Origin: Acidobacteriota bacterium
GTDB taxonomy: Bacteria; Actinomycetota; Acidimicrobiia; Spongiisociales; UBA5794
Assembly (NCBI GenBank): GCA_022562055.1
Contig: JADFQA010000016.1
Coordinates: 1 to 64,000, forward strand
DNA length: 64,000 bases
Direction: 5' to 3'
In this document: positions 50,690 through 64,000 of the stretch, one piece after another
Layout: the number at the start of each line of letters is the position of its first letter
How positions within the stretch are numbered: the stretch's first letter is position 1
Program-made: the position numbers and the translations under genes
The notes under the pieces: model-generated
Told to the model about the DNA's origin: nothing
The model's input: only the letters and a program-made list of their open reading frames with translations
Database searches by the model: none

Positions 50690-52876
50690 CTAGCTAGAGG
50701 TTTGTTCATCGAGGAGGACCGCGATGTCGATTACTTGAACATCTTCGTGCCCGAGTTCTTTGACTCCGTCGTCAAGCATCACAAAGCAGAATGGGCAGCC
50801 GGTTGCGATGACGTCGGCACCGGTCGCGACAGCCTCTTCGGTGCGCTCGATGTTGACCTTCTTGCCGGTCTGCTCCTCCATCCACATACGGCCACCACCA
50901 GCGCCACAACAGAACGAGTTCGTACCGTTGCGCTCCATCTCAACACGACCGCCAACGATGTCCACTAGACCGCGCGGGGCTGTATAGATGTCGTTGTGTC
51001 TGCCGAGGTAACACGGGTCGTGGTAGGTGATCGTTCTCGACGAGTCGTGTTTTGGTGTCAGAACCCCTTCGTCAACGAGCCTCATCAGCAACTCGGAGTG
51101 GTGAATCACTTCGTACTCGCCACCGAACTGCGGGTATTCGTTCTTGAGGGTGTTGAAACAATGGGGGCATTGTGTGATGAGCTTGGTGATCCCGAGGTCG
51201 TTCAAAGTCTCGATGTTTTGCAGCGCAAGGCCCTGAAACACGTATTCGTTTCCGGTTCGTCGAGCTGGATCACCGGTACATAGTTCGCGTGGGCCGAGGA
51301 TCGCGAAGTCGATTCCTGCACGGTGCATCAGTTTTGCTGTCGAGATTGTGGTCTTGCGGTTGCGATCATCGAAGCTGCCCGCACAGCCCACCCAATACAG
51401 ATACTCTGCCTCGACGCCAGGATCGCCGAGCACCTTTACCTCGAAGTCGAGTTCGTCCGTCCAGTCCCCTCGCGTGGCCTGACTCATTCCGTAGACGTTC
51501 GACTGGTTCTCAAGGCTGATGTAGGCCTTGCCCAATTCGGATGGGAAATCTGCCTCCATCAGCGATAGGTATCGGCGCATGTCGAGAATCTTGTCAACAA
51601 TTTCAATGTTGACCGGACACACCTCATCGCAGGCACGACACGTCGTACACGCCCACAGTTCTTCCGACGTGATACGTTCGAACACGTTGTCTGATGTCAC
51701 GGTGATGCCAGCGTCGACACCCACGGGCGGAGACACGGCTGGAGTTCCTGAGCGAGCGGCGACCTCTCCAAGCTTGAGCACAATTTCGCGCGGGTCGAGC
51801 GGCTTGCCAGTGATGTTGGCCGGGCACACCGCGGTGCATAGCCCACAGGTGGTGCACGCATCAGTGTCAAGGAGTTGTTTCCACGTGAAATCAGCAATGA
51901 CCGAAGCACCCACAGTCTCGATATCCTCAGCCTCAAGGAGATTCGGCATCTCGCGCATAGCTCCCTTGGGCCGCTCCCGCGGTCCCAGCGCCATGTTCAC
52001 TGGGGAAGTCACCGCATGTCTGAGCTTCGTCGTTGGCAGCATGACGAGAAACACCAGGAACAGGAGAGCATGTGTTGCCCAAAAGATCTGGTGCAAACCC
52101 GACGCAACCGTCGACGGGATAAGACCCGCAATGGCAGTCCCAACAAACGACCAGCTCTCCCAATCCGGCACACCGATGACTTGGATGCGGGCACCCTCGA
52201 CCAAGAGACCTGACACACCAATTGCCGCCAGGAGCGTCAGGATCCAGAAATCCTCGGGACGGGTCTTGGACCGTATGCGCCAGGGTCTGGCAACGTAGCG
52301 GCGCAAATACGCCATGGCTACCCCCACCAGGAACACCACGGCTGCGGTGTCAAGAATCAGCGAGTAGACCTGGTACACCCGACCGTTGAGGAATTGGATG
52401 CTGGTAGGCAACAGATGATCGATCTCAAGCGTGACCGTGCCGATGAACAACACCACAAACCCGTAGTAAATCGCGGCGTGCATGATTCCCGCACCGGGGT
52501 CACGCATCAGCGTCTTCATTGAAAGCCCCTCGCTGGCAGCGTGGATGCGCCGCTTCCACTGCCGCGTGCGGGTATCAGACGCACCGCGTTCCCAGTTCTT
52601 TGCGCGTAGTGCAAACAGGTAGAACGTCATCCCAAGGAACACCGAGACAGCAACGTAGAAGGTTGCGATCATCACGGCGGGTATGTTCCCAAAGATCGGA
52701 CGCGCGATCTCGTGGTCAGGGATCGCGATGAGCGCACCAATCCATCCTGACAGCAACACGCTTGCCGCACTCACCCCCGCCAACCCCACCAACACGGTGC
52801 TGGCCTTCACGCGACGTTTCGTTACCTCGGGCTGCGTCTCCGTGTCACTGACCAATCCGCTACTCCTCATGAGCAT
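50690..52876 (-). CDS. Membrane-bound heterodisulfide-reductase-like Fe-S oxidoreductase
   Basis: 728 residues. The N-terminal about 320 contain five or six transmembrane helices resembling a nitrate-reductase gamma-type quinone-interacting part. Two 4Fe-4S motifs follow ([12 protein letters not shown] and [12 protein letters not shown]), then two CCG domains ([26 protein letters not shown] with [13 protein letters not shown]). Similar mycobacterial proteins link acyl-CoA or other dehydrogenases to the quinone pool. It diverges from the paa operon across 121 bases, so it could take electrons from aromatic or fatty-acid breakdown; that is inference. Confidence 0.88.
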
Positions 52877-52934
52877 CGCATGCTCTGGCTTTCCACGGAG
52901 TCTAGATGGCGAACACCGTTGCTATCTTCCATTG

Positions 52935-52963
52935 TTGACGAACGAACGTTCGTTCGTTATAGT
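52935..52963 (+). promoter_or_regulatory. paa promoter with a perfect 20-bp palindromic operator in the spacer
   Basis: -35 TTGACG (52935-52940), 17-base spacer, -10 TATAGT (52958-52963). The palindrome ACGAACGAACGTTCGTTCGT spans 52938-52957, covering half of the -35 and the entire spacer. Such symmetric ACGAACGTTCGT sites are typical TetR-family operators, and a TetR gene closes the operon. Repression by occlusion, relieved by phenylacetyl-CoA or a related CoA ester, is the natural model. The paaA Shine-Dalgarno GGAG lies at 52988-52991. Confidence 0.85.
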
Positions 52964-52997
52964 TCTTGTCAACCACACCCCCGAAACGGAGACACCG

Positions 52998-53942
52998 ATG
53001 CAAGCGATGGCTGGAGAGGTCCGCTTCCAGGAACTGATTGATGCAGACGACAAAGTCGAACCACGCGATTGGATGCCCGACGGATACCGCAAGACACTGA
53101 TCCGCCAAATTGCACAGCATGCCCACTCCGAAATCATAGGCATGCAGCCAGAGGCGAACTGGATAACCAGGGCGCCCACGCTGCAACGCAAGATGACGTT
53201 GATCGCCAAGGTCCAGGACGAAGCCGGGCACGGTCTCTACCTGTACTCGGCCGCAGAAACCCTCGGCGTGTCCCGCGACCAACTCCAAACGCTGCTCCAC
53301 GACGGCAAGCAGAAGTACTCGTCCATCTTCAACTACCCGACACTTTCGTGGGCCGACATGGGGACGATCGGGTGGCTTGTTGACGGTGCAGCAATTGTGA
53401 ACCAGATCGCACTCCAACGAACCTCATACGGTCCGTATGCGCGTGCAATGGTCAAGATCTGTAAAGAAGAGAGCTTCCACGCGCGGCAGGGTTACTCGAT
53501 TCTCTTGGCCTTGAGCCGCGGTAGCGACGAACAGCGCGCCATGCTACAAGACTCGATCAACCGATGGTGGTGGCCCGCACTGATGATGTTCGGACCCCAT
53601 GACGCTGACTCACCAAACACCGAACAGTCGATGAAGTGGAAGGTGAAGCGAGTGACGAACGACGAGTTGCGCCAGCTCTACATCGACCAAACAGTCCCCC
53701 GAGCCGAGTATCTCGGCTGCACGATCCCTGACCCCGACCTTAAGTTCGACGAAGAGACCGGACACTGGAGTATCGGCCCGATCGACTGGGATGAGTTCTG
53801 GAACACAGTCAAGGGCAACGGCCCGCTGAACCGCGAACGCATTGCCCACAAGGTGAAGGCGTGGGACGACGGGGAGTGGGTGCGCAAGGGCGCAACCGCC
53901 TATGCAGCCAAGCAACGTAGCCGTCTCGAGAAGTCGGCGTAG
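52998..53942 (+). CDS. paaA: Phenylacetyl-CoA 1,2-epoxidase subunit PaaA
   Basis: 314-residue catalytic di-iron subunit of the ring-epoxidising monooxygenase. Diiron ligands lie in [11 protein letters not shown]-type and [20 protein letters not shown] helices and in [14 protein letters not shown]. It matches PaaA in length and ending ([22 protein letters not shown]). ATG 52998 follows the promoter and GGAG site; the frame opens further upstream into the divergent gene but is not coding there. First gene of paaABCDE-tetR. Confidence 0.95.
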
Positions 53943-53958
53943 GAAAGGAATTCCAGCA

Positions 53959-54297
53959 ATGTCATACGATGTCCCCGAAATCCCAGGCGAGAAGACCGAA
54001 GACGTAGCGTTCGGCACCGACGCACAGGGCTGGCCCCTGTGGGAGGTGTTTGTGAGGGCAAAACGCGGCCTCAACCACGCACATGTCGGTTCCCTCCACG
54101 CACCCGACGCCGAGGTTGCAGTGCAGAACGCACGCGACAGTTACACCCGCCGCGCCGAAGGTGTCAGCATCTGGGTCGTTCCCTCAACCGAGATCCACGC
54201 ATCTGATGACGCCGAGTCGTTTTTCGAACCGATGGAAGATCGGCCGTACCGTCATCCAACGTTCTACGACATCCCCTCAGAAGTTGGTCAGATGTGA
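53959..54297 (+). CDS. paaB: Phenylacetyl-CoA epoxidase subunit PaaB
   Basis: 112-residue small subunit that bridges PaaAC heterodimers. Recognised by WPLWEVFVRAKRGLNHAHVGSLHAPDAEVAVQNARD, YTRRAEGVSIWVV and the ending RHPTFYDIPSEVGQM. Starts 16 bases after paaA, with AGGAAAGGA as ribosome-binding site. Its stop overlaps the GTG of paaC. Confidence 0.95.
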   Translation: MSYDVPEIPGEKTEDVAFGTDAQGWPLWEVFVRAKRGLNHAHVGSLHAPDAEVAVQNARDSYTRRAEGVSIWVVPSTEIHASDDAESFFEPMEDRPYRHPTFYDIPSEVGQM

Positions 54298-55061
54298 AAA
54301 CAACCACGACCACACACCCTCTCGTTGCGTACATTCTCCGCCACGCTGACGACAACCTCGTGATGGGTCAGCGGCTTGCCGAATACGTCACGCGCGCCCC
54401 GGAACTTGAGGAAGATCTCGCAATCGGAAATCTCTCGCTCGACCACATCGGCGTGGCCATGCATCTGTACGGGTACGCCGCAACACTGTCCGACGACGAC
54501 ATCACGGGAGATGACTTGGCGTTCCTCAGGTCCGAACGGGAGTTCTCGAACACGCTCCTTGTAGAGCAACCGCACAACGATTTTGGTGAAGTGATGGCGC
54601 GCCAGTTCTTCTTTGCGCAATACCAGGTTCTGCTGTGGGAGTGTCTCTCAGAGTCGACCGATGAGACCCTTGCCGGCATTGCTCAAAAAGCACTCAAGGA
54701 GGCCACGTACCATGTGCGGCATGCCTCAGGATGGGTGATCCGGCTTGGTGACGGCACCGATGACAGCCATGCCCGTATGCAGGCTGCCATCGATGCAATG
54801 TGGCGGTTCACCGGTGAGCTGTTCGAAAACGACACACTCGTTGACGACATGGTTGCCGCAGGAATCGGAGCCGATCAGATCGCAATGAAGGCGCGCTGGG
54901 ACACCAGAGTGGACGCGGTTCTGACCGAAGCGACCCTCGACCGACCGCAGGATCCGTACCAAGCAACCGGAGGCCGAAACGGGATCCACACAGAGTATCT
55001 CGGGCACATGCTGGCCGAAATGCAGTGGATGCAGAGGACACATCCGGGGTTGCAGTGGTGA
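54294..55061 (+). CDS. paaC: Phenylacetyl-CoA epoxidase structural subunit PaaC
   Basis: 255-residue ferritin-like partner of PaaA, structural rather than catalytic. Typical parts are LRHADDNLVMGQRLAEYVTRAPELEEDLAIGNLSLDHIG, LREREFSNTLLVEQP-like FLRSEREFSNTLLVEQPHNDF, and the ending GRNGIHTEYLGHMLAEMQW. GTG 54294 overlaps the paaB stop as GTGA. Confidence 0.95.
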   Translation: MKTTTTTHPLVAYILRHADDNLVMGQRLAEYVTRAPELEEDLAIGNLSLDHIGVAMHLYGYAATLSDDDITGDDLAFLRSEREFSNTLLVEQPHNDFGEVMARQFFFAQYQVLLWECLSESTDETLAGIAQKALKEATYHVRHASGWVIRLGDGTDDSHARMQAAIDAMWRFTGELFENDTLVDDMVAAGIGADQIAMKARWDTRVDAVLTEATLDRPQDPYQATGGRNGIHTEYLGHMLAEMQWMQRTHPGLQW

Positions 55062-55537
55062 TGACCGACACGTTCAGTATCGAATCTATCCGCAGGCTGC
55101 TCGACGACGTAGTCGACCCAGAGATACCGGTCCTCACCATTGCAGACCTTGGCATCCTCCGCGGCGTCAAGATCGACGATCACGGGTCTGTTGTCGTAAC
55201 CATCACACCTACATACAGCGGGTGCCCGGCCATGAGCACGATCGTCGAGGATATCGAGTCGGCGCTTGCCAACGCCGGGGTCGAGCGCGTGACCGTGCGC
55301 ACGGTGTTTCAGCCGGCGTGGACAACCGATTGGATGACCGAAACCGCCAAAGAGAAACTCAAGAACTTTGGTATCGCTCCCCCAACCGAAACGGGTGGTG
55401 AATCGCCGTCGGTCCTCTGCCCACAGTGTGCGTCGGGTCGCACAAAGACGATCTCGGTGTTTGGTTCGACGGCGTGCAAGGCCCTGATGGTGTGCAGCAG
55501 TTGCCTCGAACCGTTCGACTATTTCAAGGCGATTTGA
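55061..55537 (+). CDS. paaD: Phenylacetate pathway protein PaaD
   Basis: 158-residue MIP18/DUF59-type protein proposed to help Fe-S or di-iron assembly of the epoxidase. DUF59 core: LDDVVDPEIPVLTIADLGILRGV and PTYSGCPAMSTIVEDIE. The C-terminal part has a CPQC...CSSC cysteine ribbon as in PaaD. ATG 55061 overlaps the paaC stop (TGATG). Confidence 0.94.
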   Translation: MTDTFSIESIRRLLDDVVDPEIPVLTIADLGILRGVKIDDHGSVVVTITPTYSGCPAMSTIVEDIESALANAGVERVTVRTVFQPAWTTDWMTETAKEKLKNFGIAPPTETGGESPSVLCPQCASGRTKTISVFGSTACKALMVCSSCLEPFDYFKAI

Positions 55538-56607
55538 TGCCCGCAGCAGAGTTCCATACGTTGCAAGTCGCGTCCGTCGAGCCACTCACCGACGAGTCTG
55601 TGTTGTTGACCTTCACTGTTCCCGACAACCTGAAGTCGGCGTATGCCTTCGTTGCCGGCCAGCACCTGATCCTACGCGCCGACATTGATGGGGTGGATGT
55701 TCGGCGGTCCTACTCGATCTGTACAAGCGCTGGATCGGGAGAACTCCAGGTAGCGGTCAAACGGCTTGAGGATGGCGCGTTCTCCACATACGTCAACACG
55801 CAGCTCGCTGCCGGCGACACCTTGGCGGTGACGCTCCCGACCGGTGATTTCTTGCTCCACACCGACCCGGAAACTGCACGTCACTATCTCGCGATAGCCG
55901 CCGGATCGGGCATAACCCCCGTCATGTCGATGATCTCGACGACGCTCGAAAGCGAGCCCGCGAGCAGGTTCACGTTGCTGTTTGGCAACCGTGACGGACG
56001 GTCGATCATGTTTCTCGAAGAACTGGGAGCCCTCAAGGATCGGTTCCCGTCGCGGTTCTCGCTGCTGCACATCCTTAGCCGAGAGCCGAATGCGATTCCC
56101 CTATTTGAAGGCCGGATCGATGGAGCGAAACTCAAAGACGTGTTCTCAACGGTGGTCGACATCGGTTCGGTCAATGCGTTCTACCTGTGCGGTCCCGCGG
56201 GTATGGTCGACGACGCCACCGAGTTCCTTACATCGCGAGGTGTCGAAGAAACCAATATCAACACCGAGCTGTTCTTCACAGATCGTGATGCCATAACACC
56301 CCCGCAACCGGTCGCCGACGATGCTGATGGTGTCGTCGTCGAATTCGAGCTGGCTGGCCGTGTGTCAACCGTGGTTGTCCCTCCGGATGGTGCACCAATC
56401 CTCGACTATGTCCTTTCGGCCCGTACGGATGCACCGTTTTCGTGTCGCAACGGCGCCTGTGCATCGTGCCGCGCTGTCGTCATTGAGGGCGAAGTTGTCA
56501 TGGACCACAACTGGGCGCTGACCCAGGACGAGGTCGACGCCGGTCAGATCCTCACCTGCCAGTCGCATCCGGTCTTGACAAGCCTCAAGCTGAGCTACGA
56601 CATATGA
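55537..56607 (+). CDS. paaE: Phenylacetyl-CoA epoxidase reductase PaaE
   Basis: 356-residue NADPH:ferredoxin-type reductase feeding PaaA. FAD domain RRSYSICTSAGSGELQVAVKRLEDG; NAD(P) domain AIAAGSGITPVMSMI with CGPAGMVDD; C-terminal 2Fe-2S domain with CRNGACASCRAVV and a fourth Cys in ILTCQSHP. Overlaps paaD as TGATG and the TetR gene as ATGA. Confidence 0.95.
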   Translation: MPAAEFHTLQVASVEPLTDESVLLTFTVPDNLKSAYAFVAGQHLILRADIDGVDVRRSYSICTSAGSGELQVAVKRLEDGAFSTYVNTQLAAGDTLAVTLPTGDFLLHTDPETARHYLAIAAGSGITPVMSMISTTLESEPASRFTLLFGNRDGRSIMFLEELGALKDRFPSRFSLLHILSREPNAIPLFEGRIDGAKLKDVFSTVVDIGSVNAFYLCGPAGMVDDATEFLTSRGVEETNINTELFFTDRDAITPPQPVADDADGVVVEFELAGRVSTVVVPPDGAPILDYVLSARTDAPFSCRNGACASCRAVVIEGEVVMDHNWALTQDEVDAGQILTCQSHPVLTSLKLSYDI

Positions 56608-57182
56608 AGAGGAACACCCGCGAAGACGTTGTTCGCGCCGCCGGCAGATTGTTCGCTGAGTACGGATACCACGGCACGTCGATGCGCGACCTTGGTCGCG
56701 AGCTTGGTCTGCTCGGGTCTTCTCTATACACCCACGTCGAGAGCAAACAGCAACTGCTGGTCGAGGTAGTCGAGCGTGGTGCCGCGTTCTTCCAAGCTTC
56801 CGCCGATGCTGCGGGGTCAATGGAAGGGACCGCTGCGGATCGTTTGCACAGTCTGATAGCGGGACACGTAGACGTCGTGCTCGACCACCGCGACGAAGTC
56901 CGCACCTATCTGTACGAAGCAACGGCGCTCGACGATGATGCCCGCCAGCGGGTGCTCGACGCCCGGAATCAATATGAGGCAGTCTTCACATCGGTCATCA
57001 AGGCCGGGGTGGCCGACGGCAGTCTGCGCCCCGACCTCGACGTCAGGGTCGCCACCATCTTCACTCTCTCAATTCTCAACGCCATCGACCGCTGGTACTC
57101 CGAGAGCGGCCGCATGTCCCGCAAGAAACTCGTCGACGAGATCTGGACATTCATCCTCAAAGGCCTCTACCCAATCAGCTAA
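56604..57182 (+). CDS. TetR-family regulator of the paa operon (PaaR-like)
   Basis: 192-residue TetR repressor. The helix-turn-helix is near the N terminus (VVRAAGRLFAEYGYHGTSMRDLGRELGLLGSSLYTHVESKQQLL). The C-terminal ligand domain ends MSRKKLVDEIWTFILKGLYPIS. It is translationally coupled to paaE (ATGA), so it should be made in proportion to the operon and act on the palindrome before paaA, giving negative feedback. A phenylacetyl-CoA ligand is inferred from other PaaR proteins. Its last codons are repeated at 62626-62680. Confidence 0.9.
   Translation: MKRNTREDVVRAAGRLFAEYGYHGTSMRDLGRELGLLGSSLYTHVESKQQLLVEVVERGAAFFQASADAAGSMEGTAADRLHSLIAGHVDVVLDHRDEVRTYLYEATALDDDARQRVLDARNQYEAVFTSVIKAGVADGSLRPDLDVRVATIFTLSILNAIDRWYSESGRMSRKKLVDEIWTFILKGLYPIS
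57118..57172. repeat. 55-bp repeat, copy 1 (3' end of TetR gene)
   Basis: The segment encoding SRKKLVDEIWTFILKGLY matches 62626-62680 at 54 of 55 bases (one G/A change, giving Glu or Lys). Direct orientation, 5.5 kb apart, flanking the kinase-NirK locus. Confidence 0.9.
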
Positions 57183-57229
57183 CCCGGGGCTGGGTTGGAC
57201 CAGGGTTTCGTGGTAGGTGCCTGCGGGTT

Positions 57230-58345
57230 TTATACGGGGAGTAGTAGGCGTACGGTGGTGCCGACGCCGGGTTCGGAGATGACGAATGTTTCTCCTCCTG
57301 CACGTTCGCAGCGGGTTTTGAGGTTGGCGAGACCGTTCCCGGTTGTGGGGGCCAGCGGGTCGAAGCCGTGGCCGGTGTCGACGATTGTGAGTGTGAGTTC
57401 TTCGGGCGAGAGATCCACTGACACGTCGATCCTGTCGGCGGATGCGTGGCGTACGGCGTTGGTGACGGATTCGCGAATGAGGTGAAGCGCGTCATCAATG
57501 AGCCCGGATGGGACGTCGGCGATCGATGGTCCCATAGTGACCGATGTTGTCACCCGGCTCGCGTTTGTTACCTCGTCGACGAGACGGTTCACTTCAAACC
57601 GGAAGTCGCGGCTTGATGATGTTGGTGGGTTGAGGTTGAATATCATTCTGCGCAGCTCGTTTATGGTGCCATCAAGGCGTTCGACGGACTCAGTGATTGA
57701 GTTTCGGATTTCGGGGCTGTTGATCCTCTGCGATTGTGCTTGGAGGGTCAATCCGACACCGAATATTTCTTGGATTATTGAGTCGTGAATGTCGCGGGCG
57801 ATCCGCTCGCGATCTTCGATGAGGGCGAGGTGACGGACGCGTCGTTGCATGCGTGATGTGTTGACGGCGGATCCCGCGATGACGGCGAGTCCCTCAACAA
57901 GTACTTGGTCTTCTTCGGTGAAGCCGCCGTCCTTCTCGGTGAGGTACAGGTTCCCGAAGACTTGGCTGCCGGCACGGATTGGTACACCGAGGAACGCTTG
58001 CATGCGAGGATGGTCAGCGGGCCAACCAGAGCTGTCCGGATGCTCGCCGATGTTGTCAATCCTGACTGTTTTCGCGGTGCGCGTAATGGTTCCCAGGACC
58101 CCCACCCCGGATGGGGGTTTCCCGATCTTGTCGGCTACCTCGGGACTCACCCCGATTTGGAGGAACTCAATGAGCGCCCCGTCGCGTCCGATGACACCGA
58201 GGGCACCGTACTTCGCACCCGAAACCCGCATCCCTGTTTCGATGACCTGGCGTAAAAGCTCCGTAAGATCAGTTTGTGATACCGCGGCCGCGGCGCCCCT
58301 GACGAGGTTGAAAAACTTTTCCTGACGGAGGACCTCCTGTGCCAT
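57230..58345 (-). CDS. DosS/DevS-like GAF-domain sensor histidine kinase, probable heme sensor
   Basis: 371 residues. GAF domain (about 25-165): GAKYGALGVIGRDGALIEFLQIGV, PPSGVGVLGTI, RMQAFLGVPIRAG, VFGNLYLTEKDGGFTEED. It keeps DosS heme-pocket features: His112 in ADHPRMQ aligns with the proximal heme His and Tyr134 in GNLYLTEK with the distal Tyr, at the same 22-residue spacing. HisKA_3 dimerisation domain: ALIEDRERIARDIHDSIIQ (phospho-His187). The ATPase domain closes with VDTGHGFDP and GNGLANLKTRCERAGG. Only one GAF domain, against two in mycobacterial DosS. Divergent from the response regulator. Confidence 0.9.
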   Translation of the reverse strand: MAQEVLRQEKFFNLVRGAAAAVSQTDLTELLRQVIETGMRVSGAKYGALGVIGRDGALIEFLQIGVSPEVADKIGKPPSGVGVLGTITRTAKTVRIDNIGEHPDSSGWPADHPRMQAFLGVPIRAGSQVFGNLYLTEKDGGFTEEDQVLVEGLAVIAGSAVNTSRMQRRVRHLALIEDRERIARDIHDSIIQEIFGVGLTLQAQSQRINSPEIRNSITESVERLDGTINELRRMIFNLNPPTSSSRDFRFEVNRLVDEVTNASRVTTSVTMGPSIADVPSGLIDDALHLIRESVTNAVRHASADRIDVSVDLSPEELTLTIVDTGHGFDPLAPTTGNGLANLKTRCERAGGETFVISEPGVGTTVRLLLPV

Positions 58346-58400
58346 GGGTACAGCATACCCGGCGTGTTCGTGAGCTGATTTGTTGGGGGTTTGTCCTAGG

Positions 58401-58414
58401 GGCGTTTGGCCCTG
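58401..58414. promoter_or_regulatory. DosR-box-like site between kinase and regulator genes
   Basis: GGGGCGTTTGGCCC lies 34 bases before the regulator ATG and 55 bases from the kinase start. It resembles the DosR palindrome core GGGAC-N4-GTCCC at most positions. A looser GGGGGTTTGTCC sits just upstream (58387-58398), echoing the tandem boxes of mycobacterial devR promoters. Autoregulation is inferred. Confidence 0.4.
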
Positions 58415-58448
58415 TGGGATTTGGTAGCGCAGGGAGTAGCCTGAACCC

Positions 58449-59138
58449 ATGACAGACAAACCGCCAGTACGGGTGCTACTTGTAGATGACCATGAGGTTG
58501 TGCGCAAAGGACTACGCGCACTTCTCGAAGCGGCGGACGGATTCGAGGTTGTGTCCGAGGCGGGTTCAGTCGTTGAAGCGATCCGCCGAGTGGGTTACGA
58601 CTCCCCCGACGTTGTCGTAATGGACGTCCGGTTGCCCGACGGATCAGGCATCGATGCCTGCCGAGAAATCCGCAAGAGATGGCCCGACGTCAAAGTACTG
58701 ATACTGACCTCCTACGCGGATGAAGAGGCGCTCGTCGGCGCGATCCAAGCCGGGGCTTCCGGGTACGTTCTGAAACGGATCCGTGCTGATGAGTTAGCGG
58801 AGAGTATCCAGCGTGTTGCTGCAGGAGAGTCTCTCCTCGACCCAATAATGACCGAGCAGCTATTCACAAGAATTCGTGGAGGTAACTCCGACCCGCTGCT
58901 GGAACGCCTTTCGCCTCAGGAACGACGCACCCTCGATCTTATCGCTGCGGGGATGACGAACAAGCAGATCGCCAAACAGATGTTCCTCGCTGAAAAAACG
59001 GTCAAGAACTATGTGTCAAACATGCTCTCCAAACTTGAGATGAGCCGTCGCAGCGAGGCAGCAGCATACGCTGCCCGCCTCTCTGTGGGATCACGAGTTC
59101 GCTACCCCGCTGAAACATGGGACGAAGAACAGCCCTAG
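58449..59138 (+). CDS. NarL/DosR-family response regulator
   Basis: 229 residues. Receiver domain with the phospho-acceptor Asp59 (VVVMDVRLPDGSG), Thr87 (LILTSYAD) and Lys109 (SGYVLKRI). A LuxR-type HTH follows: LSPQERRTLDLIAAGMTNKQIAKQMFLAEKTVKNYVSNMLSKLEM, close to the DevR recognition region. It is divergent from the GAF kinase, its evident partner. Downstream genes (CBS remnant, membrane proteins, NirK) are on the same strand and likely targets. Confidence 0.92.
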   Translation: MTDKPPVRVLLVDDHEVVRKGLRALLEAADGFEVVSEAGSVVEAIRRVGYDSPDVVVMDVRLPDGSGIDACREIRKRWPDVKVLILTSYADEEALVGAIQAGASGYVLKRIRADELAESIQRVAAGESLLDPIMTEQLFTRIRGGNSDPLLERLSPQERRTLDLIAAGMTNKQIAKQMFLAEKTVKNYVSNMLSKLEMSRRSEAAAYAARLSVGSRVRYPAETWDEEQP

Positions 59139-59150
59139 AAGGAGAACCCG

Positions 59151-59237
59151 ATGCAAGTACTTGATGTAATGACCACGAATGTCCTGACGATCAGCCCCGA
59201 CGAACCACCAAAGGCAGCCGCCATAACCGAACCGTAG
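59151..59237 (+). pseudogene. Truncated CBS-domain gene (28 codons)
   Basis: ATG 59151 with AAGGAGA upstream encodes MQVLDVMTTNVLTISPDEPP then KAAAITEP and TAG. This is the opening of a CBS-pair protein (usual MxVxDVMTxxVxTVxPDxPLxxAA), but the remaining about 100 residues are absent downstream in every frame. It starts 12 bases after the response-regulator stop, so it is still transcribed with it. Deletion remnant, or a very short peptide with unknown role. Confidence 0.7.
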
Positions 59238-59587
59238 CGAAACGTATCCACGCCTCGCTAATACCGGATCCGGCACAACGCCCACGGCTCTCGTTTATCA
59301 GAACTCACGTCTCGCGTGTCCATGTGACCCTAGTGTTTCGGCCCTACTGAACGTACATTTCGATCCCAACAAACCTGCCAATAGGCCCTACAGGGCGGGG
59401 TCTTGACGTCAATATCATGGGTTAGAGCGACAAAGAAGTTGGATGTGGAATTGTCCGGTAGAGAGATCTGGACCGTCATTCACGACCTGATCTTGGGTAG
59501 GCTCTTTCTTGTGCCTTCGCAGGCAGCCTCGCCGGGTTGTGGAGTCTGCGGCCGGGTCTTTTGACCACCGGGGGCATAAGAGAGCGA
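59238..59587. promoter_or_regulatory. 350-bp intergenic region with a DosR-box-like site
   Basis: No convincing gene. GGGTCTTTTGACCA at 59554-59567 contains the exact inverted repeat GGTC-N4-GACC, is DosR-box-like, and ends 20 bases before ATG 59588. Further upstream are a half-site TTTCGGCCCT (59336-59345) and an inverted repeat GCCCT-AC-AGGGC near 59386-59397. The region probably carries the promoter for the membrane-protein/NirK genes. Confidence 0.45.
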
Positions 59588-60021
59588 ATGAGACGGCTGT
59601 ACATTGGCGCCTGGGTAATGGCTCCGGCCGCCCTTGGGGAGCCGTGATTAGCGGGACCTGGATCGTGTATCCATGGTATCGGGTCAAGCTAGCTCCTGTT
59701 GGTGAAAACGCCTACGCAGGATGTGCGGACGCGATCCTGCCAAACGTGACACGCTCGCCGCGGGACTTCTTGAAGTCCAACGTGAGCGGTAACACGGAAA
59801 CGTGGCACGCCTTCGGGATGGAATGGAAAGAACACGTATCGTGGGCGGCGCCAATCCTGGCGACCGCTTCAGCGTTCCTCATCGTCTACTACGGACCGCG
59901 TCTCATCGCGCGCCCGTGGTTGAGGACCGCAGTGATCGTCATGTTTGTAGCCGCGTTTGCGGCGGCTGTCGTGGGTGGCGCCTTTGGTGCGTTCCTCAAC
60001 AAGATCGCCCCGATCGTCTAG
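59588..60021 (+). pseudogene. Small membrane protein, frameshifted in a G-run
   Basis: ATG 59588 reads MRRLYIGAWVMAPAALG and then GEP-stop. The frame two bases on continues as AVISGTWIVYPWYRVKLAP, then SPRDFLKSN, TWHAFGMEWKEHVSWAAPILATA, a second helix, and stops at 60021. One G missing from the G-run at 59635-59638 explains it (434 plus 1 is 435 bases, 145 codons). Two to three membrane helices and the conserved-looking WHxFGMEWKEH segment suggest a cofactor or metal site. I do not recognise the family. Position before NirK suggests a role in electron supply or assembly. Confidence 0.7.
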
Positions 60022-60040
60022 CTGCGAAAGGAGCGACATT

Positions 60041-60439
60041 ATGAACACAGATACAGTATCGAATCGGCACAACGATCAGGCTATTGCACCGGAACTAGCT
60101 GCCCTCAATCTCCCCGACAAGCCGGACGGACCCGCTGCTGCGGCAATGCTCTCAGCCGGTCTCGGGATCTTCACACTCGGTTTCCTTACCACGCTCGCGG
60201 TGATGAGCGGGCCCGTTAAGGACTTCTTGAGGTGGTGGCAATGGGGCCGGGGTGTCGGGCCGCTAGCGGGAAAGACCACCATTGCGGTGATTGTCTGGCT
60301 CGTAAGCTGGGCTGTTCTCAACAGGATATGGAAGGAGAAAGATCTGAATCTCAAGGTCTTTTCCTACCGGGGACTGTGGCTTGGCGTCCTCGGCGGCGTC
60401 GGGACGTTCCCACCGTTCTTTGAACTGTTCCACAGCTAA
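60041..60439 (+). CDS. Small membrane protein of the NirK locus
   Basis: 132 residues with three hydrophobic segments (about 33-55, 77-97, 110-128) after a polar N terminus. ATG 60041 has AAAGGAG upstream (60027-60033). WWQWGRGVGPLAGKTT connects the first two helices, and GTFPPFFELFHS ends the protein. No family recognised. Its stop overlaps the next ATG as TAATG, so it is part of a polycistronic unit leading to nirK. Confidence 0.75.
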   Translation: MNTDTVSNRHNDQAIAPELAALNLPDKPDGPAAAAMLSAGLGIFTLGFLTTLAVMSGPVKDFLRWWQWGRGVGPLAGKTTIAVIVWLVSWAVLNRIWKEKDLNLKVFSYRGLWLGVLGGVGTFPPFFELFHS

Positions 60440-60945
60440 TGGGTACACAAAGCCGTGCCGATCTCGTTGCCGCTTGGGTGGTCGGGATCGGCGTCGGCCT
60501 TATCACGCTCCAGATCACATGGCTGATCGCTAATCGGCTCGCATCGCTGATCTGGGGGGTGCCACGAGGTCCCACAACTGCTTTCACGATCGTTGTGATC
60601 GCGGGCGTCGTCACCTCGGTCGTGACAGGGCGCAGGCTCGCTAAGAGTTCAGCCCGGCGGGACATCGCCATGACCACTGTCCCGCAGCCCACGATCCAGC
60701 GGTGCAGTGGGGATGTCGCACTTGCGATCTGGTGGCCGCGGGGAGGTCGCTTGGCCCCACCAATAGGCCGAACGACTCTAGTACTCGCTGGTCACTTTCG
60801 ATACGGTTCTCCTGTGACGATGCAAGGGGATCCGAGACGGAACACCAGGGAATGCGTCGTCGGCACACACGCAGCTTCGGCATGCGGTAACGTTCGAAAC
60901 AACCGAGAGGCAATATCGTGGATGACCGATTCTGGTACAAGATAG
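60439..60945 (+). CDS. Small membrane protein, C-terminal half doubtful
   Basis: The first about 75 residues are convincing: two hydrophobic helices (AAWVVGIGVGLITLQITWLIANRL and TAFTIVVIAGVVTSVVTG) and a basic end (GRRLAKSSARR). The last about 90 residues lack membrane character and look like read-through into non-coding DNA, overlapping the nirK start by 28 bases. A lost stop or a frameshift after residue 75 is likely. Coupled to the previous gene by TAATG. Family unknown. Confidence 0.55.
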   Translation: MGTQSRADLVAAWVVGIGVGLITLQITWLIANRLASLIWGVPRGPTTAFTIVVIAGVVTSVVTGRRLAKSSARRDIAMTTVPQPTIQRCSGDVALAIWWPRGGRLAPPIGRTTLVLAGHFRYGSPVTMQGDPRRNTRECVVGTHAASACGNVRNNREAISWMTDSGTR

Positions 60946-62453
60946 GGCAGGCAGCGCTCCTGTTTGCCGTGATTGCGATGTTGGCCGCATCGTTGGTCGT
61001 ACAGAATGGCAGCATCTCGTCAGCAGATGTACGCGAGATCCTTGCCGAAGAAGGGGTCGCCGGATCTGACGTTCGACAGGGTTGGCCGGTCGATCAGTCG
61101 ATCCGTCCCGATCTGACACCGATCAGTGAGCTCAAGGTCGCTCTTGACAGCGAACAACACGTCTCATACGCACCGGATGTTCCCGCACCTATCACGCGGT
61201 CAGATCAGCGCATATACGACGTTCACATCGAGTCGATCGAAGGGGTTTGCCCGCTCGATCCAGCGAACAACATCACGACGGAGATGTGGGGGTTCCGGAT
61301 CGCCGGCGACGACGAAGTCACCTGCGGATCACCCGGACCTGTTCTGCGAGGCAGGGTTGGGGACGTCGTCAACATCACGTTGACAAACCTGGCGGAGAAC
61401 ACGCGCCCACACAACATCGATTTCCATGCGGTCACCGGCCAGGGAGGCGGTGCAGCGGGTTTGACGGTGAATCCCGGGGAAACCGCCACCATCCAAATCC
61501 GCCTGTTGTACCCGGGTGCGTTCATGTACCACTGTGCGTTCGGTGACGTACCGTCACACATCGCTCACGGCATGTACGGCATGTTCATCGTGGACCCGGA
61601 AAATCCCCTTCCTGAGGTCGACAACGAGTGGGCCATCGTGCAAAGCGAATGGTACGTAGGCGAGGCTGACGCACAGGGTGTGGCGCCGTACGATCGAGAC
61701 GCGGTGTTCAACGAGGAGCCGCGGATCATCACTTTCAACGGACGCACTGATTCGTTGGTTGGTGCCAACACTCTAAGGATGAATGTCGGGGAACGCGCTC
61801 GGATCTACTTCGTTAACGAGGGCTTGAATCTCGACAGCAACTTCCACCCAATCGGTTCCCAATGGGATCTTGTGTACCCCGAGGCGGCAACTCACTCTGC
61901 CAACAACGTGATTCGCGGGTCCCAAACAACCCTCGTCCCGGCTGGAGGTGCGACGGTCGTAGAAATCGACGCACTGGTCCCGTCAACGATCATCCTCGTC
62001 GACCATGCGTTGGCCCGCACGTTCTACAAAGGAGCCATAGGCACGATCGAGATCACCGGAGACGCTACGCCAGAGCTCTTCGGAGTGCTCCAGCCTGACG
62101 CAGAAACGACAAACGATGACTCGGATAGTGCAGACGATGCGAACCCTGCCGGGACCGAGGTTGCCATCCTCGAAGGGGCGTTCGATCCGAACAACGCCGA
62201 CAATGCCTACAACCCCCTGCATGTGACAGTGAAGGTAGGCACCACCATCCGCTGGACCAATGACGACGCCATCCCCCACACCGTAACGTCGGGCACATCC
62301 GACGGATCCACCGGGTCAAGCGACGGGCGTTTCGACTCTGGTTTCTTGAACCTCGGTGACACGTTCAGCCACACCTTCACAGACGTCGGCGAATTCTCCT
62401 ACTTTTGCTTACCGCACCCGTGGATGATCGGCACGGTGACTGTTACTGAATAG
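60918..62453 (+). CDS. nirK: Copper nitrite reductase fused to a C-terminal cupredoxin
   Basis: 511 residues reducing nitrite to NO outside the membrane; residues 10-29 form a signal anchor. All NirK ligands are present: type 1 copper His165, Cys206, His214, Met219; type 2 copper His170, His205, His363 (ILVDHALARTFYKG); catalytic Asp168 (HNIDFH) and His310 (SNFHPIG). An acidic linker (about 392-412) leads to a plastocyanin-like domain with His454, Cys497, His500, Met503, probably the internal electron donor. GTG 60918 has GAGAGG upstream. Confidence 0.9.
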   Translation: MDDRFWYKIGQAALLFAVIAMLAASLVVQNGSISSADVREILAEEGVAGSDVRQGWPVDQSIRPDLTPISELKVALDSEQHVSYAPDVPAPITRSDQRIYDVHIESIEGVCPLDPANNITTEMWGFRIAGDDEVTCGSPGPVLRGRVGDVVNITLTNLAENTRPHNIDFHAVTGQGGGAAGLTVNPGETATIQIRLLYPGAFMYHCAFGDVPSHIAHGMYGMFIVDPENPLPEVDNEWAIVQSEWYVGEADAQGVAPYDRDAVFNEEPRIITFNGRTDSLVGANTLRMNVGERARIYFVNEGLNLDSNFHPIGSQWDLVYPEAATHSANNVIRGSQTTLVPAGGATVVEIDALVPSTIILVDHALARTFYKGAIGTIEITGDATPELFGVLQPDAETTNDDSDSADDANPAGTEVAILEGAFDPNNADNAYNPLHVTVKVGTTIRWTNDDAIPHTVTSGTSDGSTGSSDGRFDSGFLNLGDTFSHTFTDVGEFSYFCLPHPWMIGTVTVTE

Positions 62454-62803
62454 CCCAACAATGCCTGTCGGCGCAAGGCTGCGTGTACAACGTTCGTCAA
62501 CCAGTGTGCATCGACACCGGCGATTCCTCAAATGTGGGCTTAGCCGATCGCAGACTGTGACCGTTCGTTGTGAACATCCTCAAAGACGGGCTCAACCGCT
62601 CCCTTCGTACCGCAGAGGCAGCAAGCCCGCAAGAAACTCGTCGACAAGATCTGGACATTCATCCTCAAAGGCCTCTACCCGACCAAATAGCCCGGGCGCA
62701 AACTCCGAGGTTTCCAGCCGCCGTCCACGGGTGACTTGGAACTTTTTGGGGTTCTAACAACAAACCCCTTGTATACGTCACAGATAACGTGTATTCTTAC
62801 GTC
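62454..62803. other. Intergenic region with a TetR gene fragment
   Basis: 350 bases without an intact gene. The 55-bp copy at 62626-62680 encodes the end of a TetR protein and is followed by CCGACCAAATAG, so a stop is kept. Bases upstream of 62626 do not continue the TetR homology in any frame. The right end carries the promoter of the ATPase gene. Confidence 0.7.
62626..62680. repeat. 55-bp repeat, copy 2 (orphan TetR 3' fragment)
   Basis: 54 of 55 bases match 57118-57172. It encodes ARKKLVDKIWTFILKGLYPTK and a TAG stop, with no start or DNA-binding part nearby. It is a remnant of a second, nearly identical regulator or of a local duplication. Confidence 0.9.
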
Positions 62804-62804
62804 A
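62769..62804 (+). promoter_or_regulatory. Promoter for the ATPase gene, apparently leaderless, with TACGTCA direct repeats
   Basis: TTGTAT (62769-62774), 17-base spacer, TATTCT (62792-62797), then only six bases to ATG 62804, so transcription should start at or next to the start codon. TACGTCA occurs at 62774-62780 and again at 62798-62804, 24 bases apart, bracketing spacer and -10. The repeats could bind a regulator. Confidence 0.5.
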
Positions 62805-64000
62805 TGGACGACGTACATATTTCGGAACCGTGGGCGATTAGGCCTGTCGTGGGCTCAAAGATCGCTATCGGCGACACCATCGGTCGAGACGATTGGATCA
62901 TCAACGCCCTCAAGCTGATGCGTGATGGCAACAATCTCGTGTGCAGCGATCCCCGTCGGTTGGGCAAGACGACAACAGTACGCCGTCTGGTGAACGAACC
63001 TGGAGACAACTTAACAGCACTGTTGATCGACTACGAGGGGGTTGAAACACCGACTCAGTTCTTGCTGCACACAGTCAAGGGGCTCGCCTCAGAAAGAACG
63101 CTCTGGGCCAAGGCGACAGAGGCGGCCGCACGCCTCTTCGATGGGACCGAGGTGACGGCTGGGCAGTTCGGTGTTGGACTCAAGATCAAGAACACACAGC
63201 GGGACCGCCGACCGATCGAGCTACTCCGAGATGTCTTGGCGCCCATTCACGAATCGCTCGGAGATGGCGAACTCTTGATTCTCGTTCTTGACGAAGTGCC
63301 AATCGCCGTGCGCAACATCGCAAGAGGTTCAGACGCCGGTCCCGACGAGGCAGCACACCTCCTACAGGAACTGCGCAACCTTCGTCAGGCGTTCGACAAG
63401 ATCAGATGGCTGATTACAGGTTCCATTGGGTTCCACCATGTCTTGAAAGAATGCACTGACACAACCGTGGTAGTGATTGGTGATCTCCAGAACGTAACAC
63501 TGGGACCCCTTAAATCGGATCATGCTGAATTCTTGGCGCGATGCCTTGCCCTCGGCATCAATCGTGCAATCGACACCGAAGCCATCGCTGAGGTCGCAAA
63601 GGCCACGGGCGGTGTCCCGTTCTTCATCCACGCGTTGTTTCACACGATAAGGTCTGGCGGCGACGTCGGCCCGGTAACTATCTTAGAAGTCACCCGAGCG
63701 TTCGAAACGTACCTCAACGACCGTGACGAGAGCCGCGTGATCGACCACATCCTCGAACGGCTCGATGTCTACTACCCCTCCCAGCTGTTGGGCACTACCA
63801 CGGCGTTACTTGATACCACCTCCATTGCTGGGCCTTTATCAATCGCTGATGCGAGAGACCTGATCAGAGGGAAAGCAGACTCTGCCAGCAACTCGGACGC
63901 GGAAGCATTGATAAACATGCTGATCGACGATCACTACCTCGTCCGAATCGAGGGGACCTTGGTCTGGCGATACGACGTGTTCAGGCGGATCTGGATCAAC
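62804..64000 (+). CDS. P-loop ATPase (archaeal-type AAA family), 3' partial
   Basis: 399 codons without a stop, cut by the right edge. The nucleotide site is CSDPRRLGKTTTVRRL, the 'RRxGKT' style of archaeal-type AAA ATPases; Walker B is LLILVLDEVPIAV. A sensor-like WLITGSIGFHHVL follows, then helical and winged-helix-like parts (ATGGVPFFIHALFHTI, INMLIDDHYLVRIEGTLVWRYDVFRRIW). Such proteins are often solitary, variable genes of mobile or defence-like character, with function unknown. The leaderless promoter and the neighbouring gene fragment fit recent arrival, but this is inference. Confidence 0.8.
   Translation, partial: MDDVHISEPWAIRPVVGSKIAIGDTIGRDDWIINALKLMRDGNNLVCSDPRRLGKTTTVRRLVNEPGDNLTALLIDYEGVETPTQFLLHTVKGLASERTLWAKATEAAARLFDGTEVTAGQFGVGLKIKNTQRDRRPIELLRDVLAPIHESLGDGELLILVLDEVPIAVRNIARGSDAGPDEAAHLLQELRNLRQAFDKIRWLITGSIGFHHVLKECTDTTVVVIGDLQNVTLGPLKSDHAEFLARCLALGINRAIDTEAIAEVAKATGGVPFFIHALFHTIRSGGDVGPVTILEVTRAFETYLNDRDESRVIDHILERLDVYYPSQLLGTTTALLDTTSIAGPLSIADARDLIRGKADSASNSDAEALINMLIDDHYLVRIEGTLVWRYDVFRRIWIN

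Follow-up and report, generated by a model that had tools for sequence, protein, structure and literature searches.

The Dos system (DosS/DosT-DosR of Mycobacterium tuberculosis, or DevS/DevR) is studied chiefly as a mycobacterial dormancy switch. In DosS, His149 was established experimentally as the proximal heme ligand and Tyr171 as the distal, ligand-discriminating residue; a Glu at the channel position has been proposed to narrow the heme channel and favour autoxidation, a reading that is disputed (PMC4082495). The same work links Dos to nitrate and nitrite transport through narK2 (PMC4082495), and control by DevR of narK2 and of the nitrate reductase narG2 is already known (PMC4766573, PMC8139620). 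In Streptomyces coelicolor the OsdK/OsdR pair (DevS/DevR) controls nitrogen-oxide respiration via narG2 (PMC5069765, PMC4766573); its target is a nitrate reductase, and no link to nirK was found for it in the literature searched. More generally, no paper linking DosR or DevR to nirK was found; most subscription journals lay outside the search, so that novelty is provisional.

We analyzed a stretch of 64,000 nucleotides (nt), called here the window, which is contig C16 of an uncultured actinobacterium with a genome of 2.93 Mb in 83 contigs. It carries a DosT/DosS-like kinase and a DosR-like regulator close to a nitrite reductase gene, nirK. The sensor family is known; the regulon link to nirK is probably new. 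The control link itself is likely to be genuine and to extend beyond the present locus: in relatives, DosR-type boxes are concentrated upstream of nirK. For the window, we lean slightly towards the view that a conserved DosR-type pair was copied and moved beside two gene sets which bear such boxes in relatives (a trio of membrane genes and nirK), with the gas control proposed below. The principal elements are as follows.

57230-58345, minus strand: DosT/DosS-like sensor histidine kinase with a single GAF, 371 amino acids from ATG (GAF, HisKA_3 and HATPase_c domains); His112 is the proximal heme ligand by homology, Tyr134 the distal residue, Gly50 the equivalent of DosT Gly85 and His187 the phospho-acceptor
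58399-58413, unstranded: DosR-type box GGGGCGTTTGGCCCT, in the promoter region between the divergent kinase and regulator genes
58449-59138, plus strand: DosR-like response regulator of NarL/LuxR type, with receiver and LuxR/GerE domains and Asp59 as phospho-acceptor
60918-62453, plus strand: NirK of AniA type, with an N-terminal hydrophobic anchor and a C-terminal plastocyanin-type cupredoxin

Comparison with the Dos proteins and AniA

Compared with the PDB by phmmer, the GAF domain of the kinase matches the GAF-A domains of DosT (2vzw, 7e-36) and DosS (2w3d, 3e-30), to which it is 47% and 39% identical. The alignment of the three, which the sequence-only reading had proposed as a check, contains no gaps from the domain start to beyond Tyr134, the heme-ligand region included. 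In it His112 and Tyr134 fall on His149 and Tyr171 of DosS with the 22-residue spacing kept, exactly as that reading had claimed, and the two residues are invariant in 31/31 clade sequences examined, so that the match reflects homology and no chance motif. Position 50 is a Gly in all 31 of these sequences, like Gly85 of DosT and unlike Glu87 of DosS. The HisKA_3 and HATPase_c domains and the phospho-acceptor His, a membership trait of the DosS/DosT kinases, are also present. The kinase has only one GAF domain, whereas DosS and DosT have a tandem pair; we therefore call it DosT-like and do not file it as a DosS/DosT orthologue. An AlphaFold model of the GAF domain built from the single sequence was useless (pLDDT, the predicted local distance difference test, of 37) and was not used. 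The assignment of the kinase as a homologue of heme-type gas sensors is well supported, and from this homology we infer that it senses gas, in the manner of DosT, and not redox state. Heme binding is a prediction and the second GAF is missing, so that a GAF of DosS fold might sense something other than oxygen (O2) or nitric oxide (NO), either another ligand or redox state; the invariance of both heme-contact residues and the DosT-like Gly at the channel position make this improbable.

The top PDB match of the regulator is DosR (3c3w, 216 bits), and its helix FLAEKTVKNYVS is identical to that of DosR, including the DNA-contact residues Lys179, Lys182 and Asn183. As in M. tuberculosis, a box is present in the promoter of the pair. 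The genes are co-directional in M. tuberculosis, whereas they are divergent here and in all relatives read. The usual neighbours differ as well: in relatives a CBS gene follows the regulator and, in several of them, a phosphoenolpyruvate (PEP)-synthase-like gene follows the kinase. The exact pattern GGGNCNTTNGNCCCT has only 3 occurrences in the 2.93 Mb genome, each in a region that separates a kinase copy from a regulator copy, and a box of this form is found in the kinase/regulator intergenic region of many relatives. It resembles the S. coelicolor OsdR consensus AGGGCCGATCGGCCCT (13/16; PMC5069765) and also the mycobacterial consensus (PMC6448022). The box was defined from kinase/regulator promoters and published consensuses, and nirK loci were not used. 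The mycobacterial 20-mer consensus TTSGGGACTWWAGTCCCSAA gave no match near the locus and was set aside for the box from the kinase/regulator promoters.

The best PDB match of NirK is AniA (1kbv, 7e-70, 240 bits). Alignment with AniA places the type 1 copper ligands at His165, Cys206, His214 and Met219, those of the type 2 copper at His170, His205 and His363, and the catalytic residues at Asp168 and His310; the copper ligands of the cupredoxin (His454, Cys497, His500 and Met503) are also present. The protein differs from AniA by its cupredoxin fusion and N-terminal anchor, and it lies just below the curated NirK cut-off of NCBIfam (TIGR02376: 251.1 bits against 296.3, E 1.7e-74). The sequence-only reading, which had placed the regulator next to membrane proteins and a NirK-cupredoxin fusion, was right in this; the membrane part consists of three open reading frames (ORFs), the first of them frameshifted twice.

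DosR-type boxes upstream of nirK and of the membrane genes

Boxes were counted in 39 distinct nirK loci (labelled L below; genomes are labelled G and contigs C), and the 23.9 kb lying within 700 nt upstream of nirK were compared with the remaining 377 kb. They are distributed as follows: 9 exact boxes upstream of nirK and 0 elsewhere, against 0 and 0 for the reversed-pattern control (Fisher 1e-11); with at most one mismatch, 21 upstream of nirK and 6 elsewhere, against 1 and 11 for the control (4e-21). At this last threshold 18/39 loci carry a box, and two further class genomes, added later, each have one upstream of nirK. The genomes concerned are related and so not independent, with several families represented. 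In L065 and L066 the box stands directly before nirK, and the spacing between box and nirK is equal in L120 and L066; in L156, L165 and L171 it precedes an Rrf2/NsrR-like gene which itself precedes nirK. Given this enrichment, a functional link to nirK does not require physical linkage. Control of nitrite reduction by DosSR is plausible, with independent support coming from the boxes in relatives and not from the neighbourhood in the window. The presence of a box before nirK was also considered as a tracker of kinase presence; the association is weak (p = 0.054), and G294 and G358 have boxes without a GAF kinase at the cut-off used, which argues against any strict rule. In two records titled Chloroflexi (L164 and L169; the titles may be unreliable), NirK is 58-61% identical and one-mismatch boxes lie upstream.

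The second gene set stands between the regulator and nirK in the window.

59331-59345, plus strand: degenerate DosR-type box TAGTGTTTCGGCCCT, 3 mismatches
59375-59389, plus strand: degenerate DosR-type box CTGCCAATAGGCCCT with 3 mismatches, 70 nt upstream of membrane gene 1
59445-60021, plus strand: membrane gene 1, 191 amino acids in relatives, with two frameshifts in the window
60041-60439, plus strand: membrane gene 2, 132 amino acids, intact
60439-60945, plus strand: ORF of membrane gene 3, with homologues for the first ~70 codons only

Judged by gene 2, for which no known family was matched, the trio is present in 15 of the 395 class genomes. In its relatives, boxes stand 75-135 nt upstream of gene 1; 8 were counted in 1950 nt, compared with 44 in 150 kb (p = 3e-7), and the control shows no enrichment. 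In L106, L108 and L189 they are found at -75/-76 of gene 1, and the 59375-59389 site of the window occupies the same place. Because the trio is collinear with nirK, this one site might, at a guess, serve both. With 2 mismatches, a site at 59554 also resembles the box; it was discarded as it is inside the coding sequence of membrane gene 1, which in the window is a probable pseudogene. Across the cluster (59445-60690 in the window; L105-L108 and L182-L190), gene 1 has conserved His/Trp-rich motifs and a box is often present before it.

The working that we propose starts from a two-component pair of DosR type, responsive to hypoxia and NO and conserved throughout the class, which would have been copied and relocated beside the membrane trio and nirK. 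In the single GAF, His112 would ligate the heme and Tyr134 would stand on its distal face; as in DosT/DosS, O2-bound heme would keep the kinase off and deoxy or NO-bound heme would turn it on. The phosphorylated regulator would bind the 58399-58413 box and drive its own divergent promoter. Class-wide, the regulator or a paralogue would activate nirK operons, nitrite being reduced to NO when O2 falls, and NirK-derived NO may strengthen the signal. The broader proposal is that in actinobacteria of this class, and possibly in some Chloroflexi, DosR-type systems, often accompanied by an Rrf2/NsrR-like gene within the nirK operon, serve as a standard O2/NO control of NirK, and that the window unites sensor, regulator and two target sets; its chances seem to us about even. 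If true, such boxes ahead of nirK across many uncultured actinobacteria would mark Dos as a general low-oxygen/NO switch of denitrification, and as a testable controller of NO and nitrous oxide (N2O) formation in lineages without a cultured genetic model. Most of the evidence is carried by the sequence box and not by gene neighbourhood.

Origin of the kinase-to-nirK block

From 52.7 kb onward, the order of genes in the window is paaABCDE and tetR (52.7-57.2 kb), the kinase (minus strand), the regulator (plus strand), the remnant of a CBS gene, the three small membrane ORFs, the NirK-cupredoxin gene, a fragment of the tetR 3' end and an ATPase gene. Three of its features concern the history of the block.

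57105-57188, plus strand: tetR 3' end, copy 1 of a flanking direct repeat
59151-59237, plus strand: remnant (28 codons) of a CBS-BON gene
62614-62696, plus strand: second, partial tetR 3' end, located beyond nirK, 88% over 84 columns

The genome contains three copies of the kinase/regulator pair. Those outside the window are on contigs C11 and C37, and the copies are 87-96% identical over their aligned parts. The C11 copy comprises the regulator followed by a full CBS-BON gene, its kinase being cut by the contig end; in C37 the kinase is out of frame and has lost most of the GAF domain. This last copy lies beside a 4Fe-4S/NrfD/cytochrome c operon (L011, G000:C37, 10883-16310), where a gene for a DOMON/ethylbenzene-dehydrogenase-gamma-like protein is also found. 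In the window the partial tetR 3' repeat flanks the block on both sides, and in genus mates nirK is in a different setting. The three copies, the CBS remnant, the repeat, the frameshifts of membrane gene 1 and the different placement of nirK in genus mates indicate that the block is a young rearrangement.

An assembly artefact could produce the same picture if, in C16, the part with the kinase had been wrongly joined to the part with the regulator and nirK at the 74-bp stretch 58426-58499, which is identical at the end of C37; that contig terminates exactly within the shared stretch, as is typical of an assembly-graph branch. We consider it very unlikely, because relatives conserve this divergent arrangement of kinase and regulator, the sequence runs on without a break from 58449 through the regulator-nirK side, and the related tetR 3' ends at both borders suit a single insertion. 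The even G+C across the block speaks against it too; a G+C shift was also sought as a sign of recent transfer and none was seen. Rfam and tRNA scans gave no match. Outside the block, the phenylacetyl-CoA epoxidase operon paaABCDE occupies 52683-56607 and is followed by the TetR-family regulator at 56604-57182; at the other end, 3' of the tetR fragment, the ATPase gene (62789-64000) is of AAA type, with a weak AAA_22 match.

Linkage across genomes and alternative control of nirK

Several results weigh against control of nirK by the adjacent pair in the window itself. Among the 395 class genomes, which include 36 with NirK and 149 with the kinase, linkage is absent from nearly all relatives carrying both genes. 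The nirK promoter of the window lacks a box even when 2 mismatches are allowed, and its best upstream site (5.6 bits) scores no higher than is usual in random 431-nt stretches. A 4-mismatch site upstream of nirK, with an ordinary score, aligns with a 2-mismatch site of the genus mate G001, so that the window nirK box would be at best eroded; the only close DosR-type box in the window is that of the kinase/regulator promoter. The block may be in decay, since membrane gene 1 is broken and the CBS gene cut short. Finally, an Rrf2/NsrR-like regulator, an alternative controller, adjoins nirK in about half of the relatives (e.g. L156, L165, L171, L061 and L159); the window genome has none beside nirK, its sole Rrf2 match being on another contig.

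These same observations, together with the three DosSR copies and the tetR 3' duplication, would fit a reading in which the genes are chance neighbours: the DosSR copy would control only itself and distant genes, nirK would be run by other regulators, and the juxtaposition would be a by-product of duplication and rearrangement at the tetR 3' end. This possibility deserves attention, but we doubt it, as both gene sets beside the pair carry DosR-type boxes in relatives, a degenerate box stands at the expected place before the trio, and linkage is seen again in G233 and, as regards the regulator, in G358. The sequence-only reading had proposed for the locus a compact control unit, which is partly supported. 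The regulon link contained in that proposal is backed by the boxes before nirK and the trio in relatives; given the window nirK promoter, a compact unit at the locus itself is only putative, and what stands there is a recent, partly decayed juxtaposition with hypothetical wiring.

That reading had also suggested a search of other genomes for co-occurrence of the kinase and nirK, and held that homologous loci where the two are never close would speak against it. Adjacency proved to be nearly lacking. In 60 relatives, with kinase homologues in 42 and NirK in 16, a shared neighbourhood occurs in the window genome only; at class level the kinase is within 10 kb of nirK in 2/36 nirK genomes, the window genome and G233. 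In a third, G358, a DosR-like regulator with a PAS (not GAF) kinase stands at such a distance, between a molybdopterin oxidoreductase and NirK. Elsewhere the two genes are apart, for example by 436 kb in the one-contig G056 and by 24.5 kb in G088. Kinase and nirK nevertheless co-occur above chance (24/30 against 63/108 genomes in the order, p = 0.03; p = 9e-5 in the class; not phylogeny-corrected).

In G233 the DosSR pair is 6.7 kb from NirK, inside a putative denitrification cluster. In addition to the pair and NirK, this cluster (L196, G233:C1, 3349-16711) encodes two NnrS-like proteins, a NarI-like protein and a molybdopterin oxidoreductase, and it carries an exact DosR-type box. In the Rrf2/NsrR-like proteins of L156 and L165, three Cys were seen.

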